Assembly (NCBI GenBank): GCA_000990945.1
Contig: LBQR01000008.1
Span: forward strand, 1 to 37,946
DNA: 37,946 bases
Origin: Candidatus Moranbacteria bacterium GW2011_GWF2_35_54
GTDB lineage: Bacteria; Patescibacteriota; Minisyncoccia; Moranbacterales; UBA9337
Direction: 5' to 3'
Shown: piece after piece, positions 375-22,754 of the stretch
How the letters are laid out: each line of letters opens with the position of its first letter
Position numbering within the stretch: position 1 is the first letter of the stretch
Translations under genes and position numbers: made by a program
Notes under the pieces: model-generated
Database searches by the model: none
What the model saw: only the letters and a program-made list of their open reading frames with translations
What the model was told of the DNA's origin: nothing

Positions 375-452
375 ATGGTCTATGCTTCATGATACATGTT
401 TCCGTGCTCTATGATCTATGTTTTATGATATATGTTCCATGCTCTATGATTT
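375..452. repeat. Degenerate 7-bp-period tandem array (ATGNTNY units)
   Basis: ATG at 375, 382, 389, 396, (GTG 404), 411, 418, 425, 432, 439, 446; abuts the rplT stop codon at 454-456. Confidence 0.8.
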
Positions 453-453
453 T

Positions 454-744
454 CTATTTCTTCACCTCTTCCATAAATTTTCCAAATACTTCAGGATTTT
501 CGAGAGCCATTTGAGATAAAACTTTTCTATCTAGCTCGATATTTTTACCTTTTAGAACATCGATAAATTTACTATAAGATAATTCAAATTGCCTAACAGC
601 ATTGTTTAGCCTGATAATCCAAAGGGCGCGCATAGTTCGTTTTTTAGTTCGTCTGTCTCGATAAGCATATTTGCCCGCTTTCAAGAGAGCTTCCTTGGCA
701 GCGATAAAATTAGATTTTCTTCTCCACTTAAAACCCTTGGTCAT
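454..744 (-). CDS. rplT: 50S ribosomal protein L20 (N-terminus disturbed; homologous frame extends upstream without an obvious start)
   Basis: Protein KGFKWRRKSNFIAAKEALLKAGKYAYRDRRTKKRTMRALWIIRLNNAVR is L20; the frame continues upstream as VKVSANKRRKNVLS before a stop. Confidence 0.93.
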   Translation of the reverse strand: MTKGFKWRRKSNFIAAKEALLKAGKYAYRDRRTKKRTMRALWIIRLNNAVRQFELSYSKFIDVLKGKNIELDRKVLSQMALENPEVFGKFMEEVKK

Positions 745-856
745 GGATAGAACATTCTTTCTTCGTTTATTGGCGGAAACTTTAACATCTTAGCATATTA
801 ACTCCGCCAGATGGCGGATTAGCAATGATTTATTTTTTAGATAAATCAACTAAAAT

Positions 857-892
857 TGTTTATATGTTAAAAAGTTGATATGTTAATATGTT
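857..892. repeat. 8-bp-period array between rpmI and rplT
   Basis: NGTT core at 857, 865, 873, 881, 889 (exact 8-nt steps); runs into the rpmI stop codon at 893-895. Confidence 0.75.
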
Positions 893-1084: not shown

Positions 1085-1161
1085 ATAAGCTCCGCCATCC
1101 GCCAACTGGTCGGAGGCGGATTAGCAATGATTTACTTTTAAAATAAATTCAATTACAGACT

Positions 1162-1197
1162 TGTTTATATGTTTAAATGTTTATATGTTAAATTGTT
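1162..1197. repeat. 8-bp-period array downstream of infC
   Basis: TGTT core at 1162, 1170, 1178, 1186, 1194 (exact 8-nt steps). Confidence 0.75.
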
Positions 1198-6130: not shown

Positions 6131-6373
6131 TTTTGACTTTTAGATGTTTGGCAAAATAAACCTCGTAACTTATGAATCGAGGTTTTATTTTTTATGGTAA
6201 AATATAGAAGATATACGATTTAGGATTTATGATTTGGGAAATTTTAGTTTTGTCATCTCGAGCGTAACGATAGTGAAGTCTAGAGATCTGAACTTTTGGT
6301 TTATTTGAGATTTCTCCATGCATAAATTTTGAGTACAAAATTTATTTAGTCGAAATGACACAAAAAATAAAAT

Positions 6374-6404
6374 TGTTAAAATGTTAATATGCTAACGTGC
6401 TAAT
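6374..6404. repeat. 8-bp-period array followed by a CCGCCAGCTGGCGG palindrome
   Basis: NGYT at 6374, 6382, 6390, 6398; then ccgccagctggcggagctaaaATG. Confidence 0.75.
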
Positions 6405-6425
6405 CCGCCAGCTGGCGGAGCTAAA

Positions 6426-7031: not shown

Positions 7032-7284
7032 AAGATTATCTAAGCATATTAGCACGTTAGCATATTAATATATTAACATTTCAATATAGACAGGACTTGC
7101 GCGTTTGAATATCATTTGGTCTCAAGTTTCTAAAAGACATAAAAATTGATGACTGGATTATGATTTTTATGAGAATTTTATGGCTGAGCTTGATTAAACC
7201 TATTATTATGCTAATATTATAAAATCACATAAACAGATGTGATTTGTTTATTTTTTTATTCATATTGAGTGTAAGAAAGGGAGA

Positions 7285-7794: not shown

Positions 7795-9984
7795 CTATTC
7801 CAAATGAATATTTCGATTCATTTTTTCTAGCTCTTCTTTGAGTAAAAGATTATTTTTTAAAGCAACGTCATGATTGATAATTTCGCGCGCTTCTTCGTAA
7901 GCGCATTTAATCATTTTGATGTTAGTGATGTTTTGCATCGTACTGTCAGCAAGGCCCGATTGGCGATTTCCCAAAAAATCTCCCGGACCGCGGATTTCCA
8001 AATCTTCTTGAGCTACCTTAAATCCATCGGTATATTTTTCCAAGATGCGCAGACGGGTAGTGGAATTTTTGGCAAATAAAAAGCAGTAAGATTGAAATTC
8101 TCCTCTTCCGACTCGGCCACGAAATTGATGTAGCTGCGAAAGCCCAAAACGATAAGCTTCTTCAACTATCATGACGGTAGCATTGGGAATATCGATGCCC
8201 ACTTCGATAACAGAAGTGGAAACCAAGATATCGGTTTTTTTGTTCTTAAAATTTAACATTATTTCTTCTTTTTCCTTGCTTTTCATCCGTCCGTGCAAAA
8301 GTCCCAATTTAAATTCAGGAAATACATCGCGCAAAAGCCGTGCGTGCTCAGTAACGGCCGCTTTTACTTCGGCTAGTTTTTCTGATTCTTCAACCAGAGG
8401 AAATATCACAAAAGCTTGACGGCCATTTTTAATTTCCTGGCGGATGAAATTATAAACTTCATTTTGCTTATCGGGCAAAATTACTTTAGTGATTATCGGT
8501 TTTCTGTTTTTAGGCATTTCAGTGATGAGTGAAACATCCAAACTTCCCAAAAGAGTCATAGAAATAGTGCGAGGGATAGGGGTGGCGGTCATACTTAGCA
8601 GATGGGGAATTTTATCGGGTAAACCGTCATTAATCTCTGTAATTTTTTGTTGGAGATAACTGCGTTGCATGACGCCAAATCTGTGTTGCTCGTCAATAAT
8701 AATAAGAGCTAAATTCTTGAAACGAATATCTTTTTGAATAATTGCATGCGTGCCAATTACTATGTCTATATTACCAACCTTAATTTCTTCCAACATTGTT
8801 TCACGTGAAATTTTTGCTGTAGAATAATTTTCAATTTCTAATTTTGAATTTTGAATCAATTTTGAATTCTTTAATGAAACCAATGACCGATGACCGATGA
8901 CTTTTCCTTCTCTACCGTGAACTGTTGACCGTGAACCATAAACCAACTTATACGAATTAGTCAATAATCCTATGGAAATATCAAAATCAGCAAGTAGTTT
9001 GCTAAAATTTTCAAAGTGTTGATAAGCTAAAACTTCCGTTGGCGCCATAATAGCGGCTTGAAAACCATTGGTTGATGTTTGGAGTGCCGCTAGTATCGCT
9101 ACTATTGTTTTTCCTGAACCAACATCTCCGTTTAAAAGACGATTCATGGGGTGTTTTTTGGTTAAATCTTTTTTAATTTCAGTAAAAGCTTTTTTTTGAT
9201 CATTTGTTAAACTAAAAGGCAGGGAAGCTAGGAATTTTTTTATCTTCTCGGTTGGAAATTCTAATTCTTGGGCACTTTCTTTTTTGAGTTGTTTTTTTAT
9301 TTGGAGGGCTCTGAGTTGAATTAAAAACATATCAAAAAAAGCAAATCTTTTTTGTGCTACTAGATAAGAATTTTCTGAGCGGGGAAAATGAACGTCATAA
9401 AGAGCTTTTTTGAGAGTCGGGAGGTGATATTTTTTTAATATCTCAACAGGAAGCGGGTCGACAATGTCAAAATCATTTTTGAAAATAGTTTCGATTTGCC
9501 AGCGGAGCCATTTAGAAGTTATGCCTCTAGTCTCGGGATAGATGGGGACAATTCTGCCTGTGTGATTAGGATTTTTATCAGCCACTTCCCAAATTGGATT
9601 GGAAAAATAAAAACCGTTTTTGTCCAATTTGGCTTTGCCACTGAGACGAATGAATTTATTTTTGCTAAAAACATCAATTAAATACTTTTGATTAAACCAG
9701 GTGGCGCGGATAATTCCAGTTTCGTCTCTGAGTTGAATTTCAATGATGCTAATTTTTTTGTGCCAGCTTCGCTTGAGGGCAAATTTGATGATTTCTCCAC
9801 TGACTGTGGCGCTTTGCTCAGGAATTATTTCTGAAATGCTTACCAAATTAGAAAGGTCATCATAGCGGGCCGGAAAATGAAACAAAAAATCACCCACCGC
9901 AGTGATGCCTAGTTTCTTTAACTTTTCGGCCTGAGCGGGCTTTATATGAAAAGTTTTATCAATAGGGGTTTTTAAATTTAGCAT
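7795..9984 (-). CDS. recG: ATP-dependent DNA helicase RecG, with an insertion in the helicase core
   Basis: LLNGDVGSGKTIVA, IIDEQHRFGV, LLSMTATPIPRT, STSVIEVGIDIPNA, HQFRGRVGRG. Confidence 0.97.
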   Translation of the reverse strand: MLNLKTPIDKTFHIKPAQAEKLKKLGITAVGDFLFHFPARYDDLSNLVSISEIIPEQSATVSGEIIKFALKRSWHKKISIIEIQLRDETGIIRATWFNQKYLIDVFSKNKFIRLSGKAKLDKNGFYFSNPIWEVADKNPNHTGRIVPIYPETRGITSKWLRWQIETIFKNDFDIVDPLPVEILKKYHLPTLKKALYDVHFPRSENSYLVAQKRFAFFDMFLIQLRALQIKKQLKKESAQELEFPTEKIKKFLASLPFSLTNDQKKAFTEIKKDLTKKHPMNRLLNGDVGSGKTIVAILAALQTSTNGFQAAIMAPTEVLAYQHFENFSKLLADFDISIGLLTNSYKLVYGSRSTVHGREGKVIGHRSLVSLKNSKLIQNSKLEIENYSTAKISRETMLEEIKVGNIDIVIGTHAIIQKDIRFKNLALIIIDEQHRFGVMQRSYLQQKITEINDGLPDKIPHLLSMTATPIPRTISMTLLGSLDVSLITEMPKNRKPIITKVILPDKQNEVYNFIRQEIKNGRQAFVIFPLVEESEKLAEVKAAVTEHARLLRDVFPEFKLGLLHGRMKSKEKEEIMLNFKNKKTDILVSTSVIEVGIDIPNATVMIVEEAYRFGLSQLHQFRGRVGRGEFQSYCFLFAKNSTTRLRILEKYTDGFKVAQEDLEIRGPGDFLGNRQSGLADSTMQNITNIKMIKCAYEEAREIINHDVALKNNLLLKEELEKMNRNIHLE
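8826..8944 (-). repeat. 7-bp-period array inside recG (in frame)
   Basis: Minus strand: GGTTTAT GGTTCAC GGTCAAC AGTTCAC GGTAGAG AAGGAAA AGTCATC GGTCATC GGTCATT GGTTTCA TTAAAGA ATTCAAA ATTGATT CAAAATT CAAAATT AGAAATT GAAAATT. Confidence 0.8.
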
Positions 9985-20765: not shown

Positions 20766-21518
20766 ATGGGAATTGAATCAATGTCTCAAAATAAAGAGCA
20801 GACAGCAGTTCATTATCCTGGTGAAAATTATGAATTTAGCTTGTCTCTAGCTGAGAATTGCAGCGATAATGCGTTAGATGTCATTAGGGAGAAAAAATTT
20901 ATCAGAGAGCGTCTTTTGGATATAAAAAATCATGATGAAAAAACTTTTCTGCATTCTTTAGAGGTGGGAAATATGACCGCTTTTTTGATCAATAGACTTG
21001 GCGATAAATTATCAAAAGAGGAAAGAGAAATTTTAATAAGCTCAGCGTTGCTTCATGATTATGGGAAAACTAGCATTGACCCGGAGATTTTAAATAAAAA
21101 AGAAGAACTGACCCCGGAGGAATTAACGGAAATAGAAAAACATCCAACTGAGACCTTTTATGCCCTAAGAGAATGGAATATCGAAGTAGCTAAGGTGTCC
21201 GTAGCTCATCATGAGCACCAAGATCATACTTATCCGCGAAAAGAATTCACGGATGATGTTATGAGAGAAAGGACGCCCAGCAAAGAGGTAGATAAGTTAT
21301 CGAGAATTTTAGCGATAGTGGATTCATTTCAGGCTATGCTGGATCCAACTCGTCCAAGTAGCATAAGGAGCCCTAAGACTATCGATGAAACAATAGATGA
21401 ATTGAATAAAAAATTTATTTTGAAAGAAGACAAAGAAACCATTTTTTTATTGGAAAAATATTATTATGAAAAATTGGATAATGAAGAAAAGAAAAATTCA
21501 AAAGAGCAAATACATTAA
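20766..21518 (+). CDS. HD-domain phosphohydrolase (HD-GYP-like)
   Basis: HSLEVGNMTAFL, ALLHDYGKTSIDPEIL, VSVAHHEHQD. Confidence 0.9.
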   Translation: MGIESMSQNKEQTAVHYPGENYEFSLSLAENCSDNALDVIREKKFIRERLLDIKNHDEKTFLHSLEVGNMTAFLINRLGDKLSKEEREILISSALLHDYGKTSIDPEILNKKEELTPEELTEIEKHPTETFYALREWNIEVAKVSVAHHEHQDHTYPRKEFTDDVMRERTPSKEVDKLSRILAIVDSFQAMLDPTRPSSIRSPKTIDETIDELNKKFILKEDKETIFLLEKYYYEKLDNEEKKNSKEQIH

Positions 21519-21530
21519 AATAAATTAATC

Positions 21531-21652
21531 TCAGTTAAATAATGTAAATTACTGCTATTTAACGGTTTACCCCGTTAAATCAGAGTAGGTTTTGTTATTT
21601 AACGGGGCAACCCCAGTTAAATAGTGCGGGGTACCGCAATTTAACGGGGTAA
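21531..21652. repeat. Alternating inverted CCCNGTTAAATA / TATTTAACNGGG repeat cluster
   Basis: Six alternating copies between the HD gene and the ORF at 21659. Confidence 0.8.
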
Positions 21653-21658
21653 AGAAAT

Positions 21659-21862
21659 ATGGAAGAAGAAATTTTGAGGAAAATTGAAGATCAAAACAAG
21701 AAGATTGATGCAATCTGGATAAGTGTAGAAAAAACGAGAAAATATTTTTTAACTACTCTTATAATATCAGTAGTAATGACAGTTTTACCGTTGATTGGAC
21801 TACTGATTGTCATTCCGATAGTTTTGAGCAGTTTGTCGAAATCGATGGAAGGACTTTTGTAA
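21659..21862 (+). CDS. Small protein with coiled coil plus TM segment
   Basis: MEEEILRKIEDQNKKIDAIWISVEKTRKYFLTTLIISVVMTVLPLIGLLIVIPIVL. Confidence 0.7.
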   Translation: MEEEILRKIEDQNKKIDAIWISVEKTRKYFLTTLIISVVMTVLPLIGLLIVIPIVLSSLSKSMEGLL

Positions 21863-21889
21863 AATTTCAAATTTCAAATGTCAAATAAA
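21862..21889. repeat. 7-bp-period array abutting a stop codon
   Basis: AAATTTC|AAATTTC|AAATGTC|AAATAAA starting on the last base of the TAA. Confidence 0.65.
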
Positions 21890-21952
21890 TTTTTAATGAC
21901 TTAATGAAATAATTCAGGTCGTTTTATTTTTTTTAGTATGAGTGGCTGTTAT

Positions 21953-22040
21953 ATGCTAATATGTTAAAATGTTGGTATGCTAAGATGTTGGAATGTTAAT
22001 ATGTTAAAATGCTGACATGTTAATATGTTAAAATGATTAC
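21953..22040. repeat. 8-bp-period array, 11 phased ATG units
   Basis: ATG at 21953, 21961, 21969, 21977, 21985, 21993, 22001, 22009, 22017, 22025, 22033. Confidence 0.95.
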
Positions 22041-22062
22041 ACGGAGAGATGCTAGAGTGGTT
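22041..22062 (+). repeat. Partial tRNA-Ser(CGA) 5' duplicate
   Basis: acggagagatgctagagtggtt identical to 22392-22413. Confidence 0.9.
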
Positions 22063-22127
22063 TGCGCCCGAGGCGCATCCGCCTGGGGCGGAGAATAGAA
22101 CTTAATAATTCTTATATAATCAAAAAG

Positions 22128-22388
22128 ATGCATTACGTTTACATTTTATATAGTAAAAAATTAAATAAATTCTACGTGGGCGCAACAAGTGATTTGAAAA
22201 GAAGAGTTTCGGAACATAATATAGGAGCGAGTCAATTTACTTCCGCGGGGGTTCCTTGGGAGTTGGCATATTATGAAGCTTTCTTAAAAAAGAAAGACGC
22301 TATAAGAGAAGAGAATTTTCTAAAAACAGGAAAAGGGAGAGAAAGAAGAAAATATTTATTGGAAACTTATTTAGAAGATTTAAAATAA
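22128..22388 (+). CDS. GIY-YIG domain mini-protein
   Basis: MHYVYILYSKKLNKFYVGATSDLKRRVSEHNIGASQFTSAGVPWELAYYEAF...REENFLKTGKGRERRKYL; ORF track extends to 22062. Confidence 0.93.
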   Translation: MHYVYILYSKKLNKFYVGATSDLKRRVSEHNIGASQFTSAGVPWELAYYEAFLKKKDAIREENFLKTGKGRERRKYLLETYLEDLK

Positions 22389-22393
22389 TTTAC

Positions 22394-22480
22394 GGAGAGA
22401 TGCTAGAGTGGTTGAATAGGACGCTCTCGAAAAGCGTTGTCCGAGAAATCGGACCGAGGGTTCAAATCCCTCTCTCTCCT
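22394..22480 (+). tRNA. tRNA-Ser (anticodon CGA)
   Basis: ggagagatgctagagtggttgaataggacgctctCGAaaagcgttgtccgagaaatcggaccgagggttcaaatccctctctctcc; acceptor GGAGAGA/TCTCTCC; no encoded CCA. Confidence 0.93.
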
Positions 22481-22568
22481 CAGTGAACAAAATGAATAAG
22501 ATAGATAAATTATCTTAAGATAAGATTTGTCAAGAAACCATTTGATATGGTTAATAAAAAGAGGAAGA

Positions 22569-22754
22569 ATGGAAATGTCTAAATATTATGTTGTGTTACG
22601 CAGTAGGGAGAAGCCTAGAGAATTCCAGCCTGCTTTAAGATGGCATGTTTCTTTTGATAGCAAAACTGATTTTGAAAATTGGTATACGGACGAAGTTAAA
22701 TCAAGACAAGAGATACTTTGGGAGGCACAGCTACTGAAAACGAATTCCAAATAA
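22569..22754 (+). CDS. Hypothetical protein (61 aa)
   Basis: SD-like agaggaag before ATG; MEMSKYYVVLRSREKPREFQPALRWHVSFDSK. Confidence 0.6.
   Translation: MEMSKYYVVLRSREKPREFQPALRWHVSFDSKTDFENWYTDEVKSRQEILWEAQLLKTNSK

Follow-up and report, generated by a model that had tools for sequence, protein, structure and literature searches.

Several kinds of short repeated DNA words are known from bacterial intergenic regions. The STRR heptamers of filamentous cyanobacteria are dispersed intergenic short tandem repeats of near-identical units, and we know of no report that they face gene edges in inverted pairs. The operator arrays of ribbon-helix-helix proteins, such as the 8-bp met boxes of MetJ and the heptads of omega-2, consist of contiguous, degenerate 7-8 bp units in direct or inverted orientation near promoters. 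DNA uptake sequences of Neisseria and the Pasteurellaceae are genome-specific words that form inverted pairs at gene ends, and REP/MITE palindromic elements are dispersed intergenic elements built as inverted repeats. Direct repeats of the heptamer TAACTGA have been described in marine Beggiatoaceae, Cyanobacteria, and Bacteroidetes, where their mechanism is not given (MacGregor 2015, PMC4679880). These occur between genes in 100-200 sets per genome, each of few units, with a patchy distribution over distant phyla; they mostly point at a start codon and end there, with a minority reversed towards stops and one inverted repeat reported, contain stops in all frames, and also precede ribosomal-protein genes (PMC4679880). 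Here we describe arrays of a phased octamer in a Patescibacteria genome; our search of the literature on Patescibacteria/Parcubacteria found no description of such arrays.

The window array and its genome-wide family

The window (the whole stretch of DNA analysed, 37,946 nt) is contig C8 of G000, a genome of 1.22 Mb in 76 contigs, which was compared with G001, a sister species of the same genus, and with other genomes of the class. As the first-pass annotation had claimed, 11 ATGs stand at exact 8-bp phase with zero slips at 21953-22040, where none would be expected; no further stretch with at least four ATGs at this phase occurs in the window. TRF reports the array with two periods, 8 bp (10.4 copies, 68% matches) and 24 bp (3.8 copies, 81%). 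It is the longest copy in a 375-kb sample of G000, a length that is not special and that is probably due in part to duplication of three units (24 bp).

The array is one instance of a dispersed, lineage-specific family found genome-wide and not a local oddity of a tRNA/GIY-YIG locus. A three-unit pattern with one mismatch allowed has 195 matches (96 + 99) in the G000 genome, its reversed form has none, and a profile search found 50 arrays of at least 20 bits in the 375-kb sample, which consists partly of contigs chosen for having matches, and 0 in a shuffled copy (first-order Markov). Scaled to the genome, this amounts to about 160 arrays, an estimate on the upper side because the sample includes contigs picked for matches; G000 holds well over a hundred short arrays between genes. 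The comparison with shuffles that had been proposed for the lag-8 signal bore it out, the signal being far higher in the real sequence, with 28 phased trinucleotide runs in G000, all intergenic, and 0 in the shuffle. In a survey of any trinucleotide at periods 5-14, the intergenic arrays of both genomes were nearly all of period 7 or 8. The three-unit pattern is present in 20 of 387 genomes across the class. The samples were non-random, and gene calls came from a simple hexamer-based ORF caller together with ARAGORN. Long true tandem arrays of the same octamer pattern, with up to 8 consecutive four-unit matches, were also seen in Photorhabdus (L089, L090, L123), an unrelated group.

Over 601 units the consensus is ATGYTRAH (A-T-G-Y-T-A-A-H), with T2 at 0.99, G3 and T5 at 0.97, and A7 at 0.90, so that TG-TAA forms a nearly invariant core; the variable positions are Y4 (C 0.37, T 0.58) and H8 (A 0.41, T 0.43, C 0.14). 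Adjacent units are not the near-identical copies of a microsatellite, since the Y4 states of neighbours are statistically independent and those at H8 almost so, where A and T alternate slightly more often than expected; the earlier view that this is no simple microsatellite therefore stands, the units varying mainly at fixed positions. Array length peaks at 3-4 good units and falls sharply at 5 (16 of the 25 arrays in G033 have exactly 4), and the good units are followed by one terminal ATG, most often ATGA. The element is about four octamers plus a terminal ATG(A), roughly 35 bp.

The rules of array orientation are not visible from the window alone. Among neighbouring arrays within 150 bp, 42 of 43 pairs diverge, (-)(+), from the middle of the gap, and the pair centres cluster near 15 bp (range 0-39 bp). 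In G033, G044, and G178 an array pair commonly spans the gap from the stop codon of one gene to the start codon of the next, in G178 even within the S10 operon (gene identities from N-terminal sequences); in G000 arrays mostly occur singly. Assigned arrays point at starts in 32 of 42 cases in G000 and 14 of 25 in G033, the remainder pointing at stop codons, and the convergent gaps of the two genomes hold 0 arrays, for which the chance probabilities (0.013 in G000, 0.049 in G033) are approximate because paired arms are not independent. Of 27 starts that lie within -10..+24 bp of an array end, 21 are in phase (p=1.5e-14), a figure partly inflated because the simple gene caller favours ATGs inside arrays; the start codon is itself an array unit, and in-phase starts are also found at rplT, efp, def, trxB, and rplF, whose N-termini are recognisable. 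A first impression that the stop codon is in phase with stop-side arms was dropped, the offset being variable. Twenty G000 arrays do not abut a start. Within 20 bp of the outer end, nine of them carry a -35 box of sigma-70 type (background 7%, p=3e-6), compared with 0 at the inner end; two such sequences are TTGACA-N17-TATACT after L063 4270 and TTGATT-N17-TATCAT after L073 5093. Array ends are found at start codons, tRNAs, sigma-70 -35 boxes, or stop codons. A ladder of overlapping extended -10 promoters was an attractive candidate because TGYTAAHAT resembles TGnTATAAT; it was rejected, as the promoters of these genomes look like ordinary sigma-70 promoters (TTGAC...TAnnnT, sense-enriched) and at many arrays are located past the outer end.

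The tRNA-Ser locus and other repeats in the window

The array had first been described as standing directly upstream of a tRNA-Ser/GIY-YIG element, with an implied tie between the two that fails on comparison with G001. In that genome the orthologous array, of 8 units, lies 2 nt upstream of an intact tRNA-Ser(CGA), with neither GIY-YIG gene nor tRNA fragment; the flanks are near-identical, and the difference between the arrays is 24 bp of whole units. Since the G001 array abuts the intact tRNA without a GIY-YIG gene, the array is part of the tRNA gene's 5' flank. The GIY-YIG insertion with its partial tRNA duplication is an event separate from the array, and the GIY-YIG gene is outside the array system. 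A search against Rfam over 21500-22600 matched the tRNA solely, leaving the array itself unmatched.

The octamer had also been listed at six further places in the window. Five were recovered with the profile (Table 1), two of which (781-804 and 7040-7087) sit on the minus strand, a point the first-pass annotation did not remark; the sixth, 2797-2824, is only a weak TTGTT-type lag-8 run, detected by TRF. At rplT (744-804, minus strand) the usual start is missing: the codons that read MTRVKRG in G001 are replaced by array-like units (ATGCTAAG ATGTTAAA), which include an in-frame stop, and the first start left is the ATG at 744. This loss of N-terminal codons is either a real truncation through array spread or an assembly error.

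Table 1. Positions of the octamer arrays and of the tRNA-Ser locus features in the window.
Feature	Position	Strand	Remarks
Array, 11 ATG-phased octamers	21953..22040	+	ends ATGATTAC 2 bp before tRNA-Ser 5' fragment; G001 orthologue L157 2083-2146
Duplicated tRNA-Ser 5' fragment (GGAGAGATGCTAGAGTGGTTT, ~20 nt)	22043..22063	+	left by GIY-YIG insertion; G001 has intact tRNA-Ser there
GIY-YIG protein gene	22128..22388	+	PF01541, 8.8e-15; between array and tRNA; absent here in G001
Intact tRNA-Ser (CGA)	22394..22481	+	gene originally abutted by the array
Array copy pointing at rplT	781..804	-	outer units stand where rplT codons 1-7 would be
Array copy, divergent partner of 781-804	856..887	+	towards 3' end of small minus-strand ORF 893-1105
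Array copy, stop-side arm	1161..1192	+	13 bp from stop of minus-strand gene 1206-1748
Array copy	6373..6404	+	21 bp upstream of gene starting 6426, then palindrome CCGCCAGCTGGCGGA
Array copy, stop-side arm	7040..7087	-	8 bp past stop of plus-strand gene ending 7031

Other repeats were seen alongside the octamers. The palindrome CCGCCAGCTGGCGGA stands exactly at the outer end of several octamer arrays (window 6405-6419, L061 10399, and L061 18055), where it precedes GCTAA-ATG or GTTAA-ATG, as if inserted between units. Two ATG runs at 7-bp spacing occupy 375-402 and 411-452 of the window, and ATG-phased heptamer arrays (ATGNTNY) occur in G000 at window 375-452, L063 8299, and L068 3200. Further heptamer families are AATTTYN and TAGTTTA, the AATTTYN arrays of G033 being mostly inverted pairs about 100 bp apart. 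At window 8825-8901, the heptamer repeats AATTTTC and ACCGATG form an in-frame low-complexity insert in a recG-like ORF (7795-9984), and the repeat of this insert is also dispersed in G001.

Conservation, word change, and candidate explanations

Conservation of phase, which the first-pass annotation had put forward as a check, is seen in the sister species: G001 keeps the phase, and indels are of whole units, the dnaX arrays differing by exactly one. Across three orthologous arrays of G000 and G001, positions T2/G3/T5 differ at 1 of 48 sites and Y4/H8 at 15 of 32 (p=1e-6), in a small sample of 16 unit pairs, some of them paired by hand. The core is far less diverged than Y4/H8, which argues that it has been constrained after array formation. 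Because of this constraint, the fixed size, and the position at gene edges, a binding-site array fits best: the window array would be an expanded copy of a genome-wide element that serves as a cooperative binding-site array, marking or insulating the edges of transcribed units, mainly at their 5' side, a reading to which we assign a probability of roughly 0.4. The consensus, size, position, orientation, DNA-level symmetry, and interspecies core constraint are all directly observed. The element starts near mid-gap and points outwards, to whichever functional edge is nearest. A sequence-specific DNA-binding protein would occupy the array, binding would be cooperative along the 8-bp phase, and occupancy may act on transcription or chromosome organisation. 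Against a binding-site array counts that stop-side arms and the S10-operon arms of G178 have no evident regulatory use, as does the quick turnover of most arrays; no candidate binder for the arrays was found.

Nine further orthologous junctions carry an array in G000, and eight of these are without a recognisable array in G001 (one has it), which suggests that arrays are gained and lost, most turning over quickly. In relatives, the rpmI-rplT and rpsR-efp gaps are free of arrays or contain a phased inverted one made of a different 7-8 nt word. The rpmI-rplT gaps of the G033 family fall into two classes: those of 14-24 nt contain no array, and those of 58-128 nt often contain inverted phased arrays made from other words, among them GTTATGT, which has period 7 and occurs in the rplT as well as the efp gap of G421, and AATTTAAA-like heptamers, with ATGTTTC and TTCGTAGA-like words also in the efp gap; the rplT gap of G001 is different, with a AGCTATGACCTAAA-like run. 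Inverted repeats of TTCGTAGA-like and AATTCGCAT-like words were noted in the efp/rplT gaps of L193, L197, L198, L216, and L223 (G033 family). The word seems to go with the genus, though more than one is possible per genome, and the inverted-array architecture, judged by these gap sequences, recurs at the same junction while the word changes between related genera. It is conceivable, if doubtful, that phased 7-8 nt arrays at the gene edges of Paceibacteria are written or maintained by a trans-acting word-specific system, in the form of a templating activity or of a DNA-binding protein particular to each genus; orthologous gaps would then retain their inverted-array architecture as the word is exchanged between genera.

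Word turnover and indifference to the kind of edge are better fitted by a templated generative process that leaves neutral scars, which would yield outward arms, variable centres, in-phase starts, indels of whole units, and a word that the template dictates for each genome. Such a process agrees with divergent pairs whose centres vary and whose units are independent, with start codons in phase, with arms that abut any kind of edge, with different words at the same junction in relatives, and with the replacement of rplT N-terminal codons by array units in the window. We nevertheless consider it unlikely, as the 3-4-unit length peak and the conserved core in orthologues are unexpected for neutral scars, convergent gaps hold no arrays, and a candidate enzyme or template was not found. 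Similarly improbable is a palindromic mobile element (MITE/REP-like) of about 80-90 bp, with inverted octamer arms and a centre of about 15 bp, that enters short co-directional gaps and leaves single arrays as remnants. The clustering of centre lengths is in keeping with this, as are two near-identical copies in opposite orientation in G339, the shared centres and arms of G178 copies, and orthologous gaps in the G033 family that are short (0-27 nt, no array) or longer, many with arrays. The G033 copies, however, share the consensus only, and not the states at variable positions or the centre; decay should strike all positions, yet the core hardly varies while two positions are random; arrays in G000 mostly stand alone, and G000/G001 gaps are of similar length with or without arrays.

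A function at the RNA level, either as an AU-rich leader replacing the Shine-Dalgarno sequence (as proposed for TAACTGA repeats) or as a two-arm intergenic mRNA hairpin, appears quite unlikely. Many arrays do reach the start codon in phase, SD-like motifs are scarce upstream (42/294 in G000, 11/175 in G033), and inverted arms recur at G033-family junctions despite the change of word. However, sense (start-side) and antisense (stop-side) arms have an identical profile, which points to duplex DNA rather than RNA, and some arrays precede a tRNA or lie beyond the transcript, upstream of -35 boxes. The fold of real arm pairs (-20.4 kcal/mol) is weaker than that of swapped arms (-22.9 kcal/mol), sense and antisense strands folding alike, and the arms do not covary (Y4 matches 0.54 vs 0.545 by chance; H8 0.29 vs 0.39, a deficit), so that a selected hairpin was rejected at the unit level. 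The shared arm profile, a complementarity of the arms no higher (in fact lower) than that of swapped arms, and the lack of covariation together favour a motif of duplex DNA over an RNA motif or a hairpin under selection; the constraint on the arrays looks DNA-level. A neutral replication-slippage minisatellite in AT-rich spacers, already disfavoured, is very unlikely, for although interspecies indels are of whole units and the 24-bp period of the window copy suggests tandem duplication, neighbouring units are independent at Y4 and not mutual copies, outward orientation is fixed, length is peaked, and the core is constrained.

Relation to described systems

The arrays bring the kind of pattern seen in Beggiatoaceae, Cyanobacteria, and Bacteroidetes to the candidate phyla radiation. 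Several of their features limit the possible explanations: length is fixed, the core is constrained at the DNA level, arms face outwards at every edge type, and related genera rebuild the same junction with a different word. A dedicated factor behind them would mean a new system that organises or writes very small genomes; failing that, they still explain much odd intergenic sequence and are a source of mis-called start codons.

Like the STRR heptamers, with which they are compared by description only, the octamers are dispersed intergenic short tandem repeats. The operators of MetJ and omega-2 are similar in their contiguous 7-8 bp units, which makes ribbon-helix-helix proteins the obvious class of binder, but the ribbon-helix-helix domain RHH_1 (PF01402) is absent from seven array genomes tested (G000, G001, G033, G044, G178, G273, and G168) and present in G339 alone, and an operator array of this type was rejected. 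DNA uptake sequences are alike in their genome-specific words and inverted pairs, but lone octamers are not enriched here, single TGYTAAHA outside arrays numbering 162 in G000 against 176 expected, and this candidate too was set aside. With REP/MITE elements the arrays have in common that they are dispersed inverted repeats between genes; their copies share the unit consensus and mostly not a full-length sequence, which is common to two copies in G339 and partly so in G178, but not in G033.

Of the described systems, the TAACTGA heptamer arrays of Beggiatoaceae come closest. Both are short phased intergenic repeats that point at starts, with a minority at stops, and both occur at ribosomal-protein genes. 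They also agree in the number of sets per genome, the small number of units in each, the stops in all frames, and the patchy spread over distant phyla. The unit here, however, is ATGYTRAH, of 8 nt, and not TAACTGA, of 7 nt; it has internal variable positions, and divergent inverted pairs are common. The octamer arrays further differ in including the start codon as a unit, in standing also at -35 boxes and a tRNA, and in a word that differs between related genera at the same junction.
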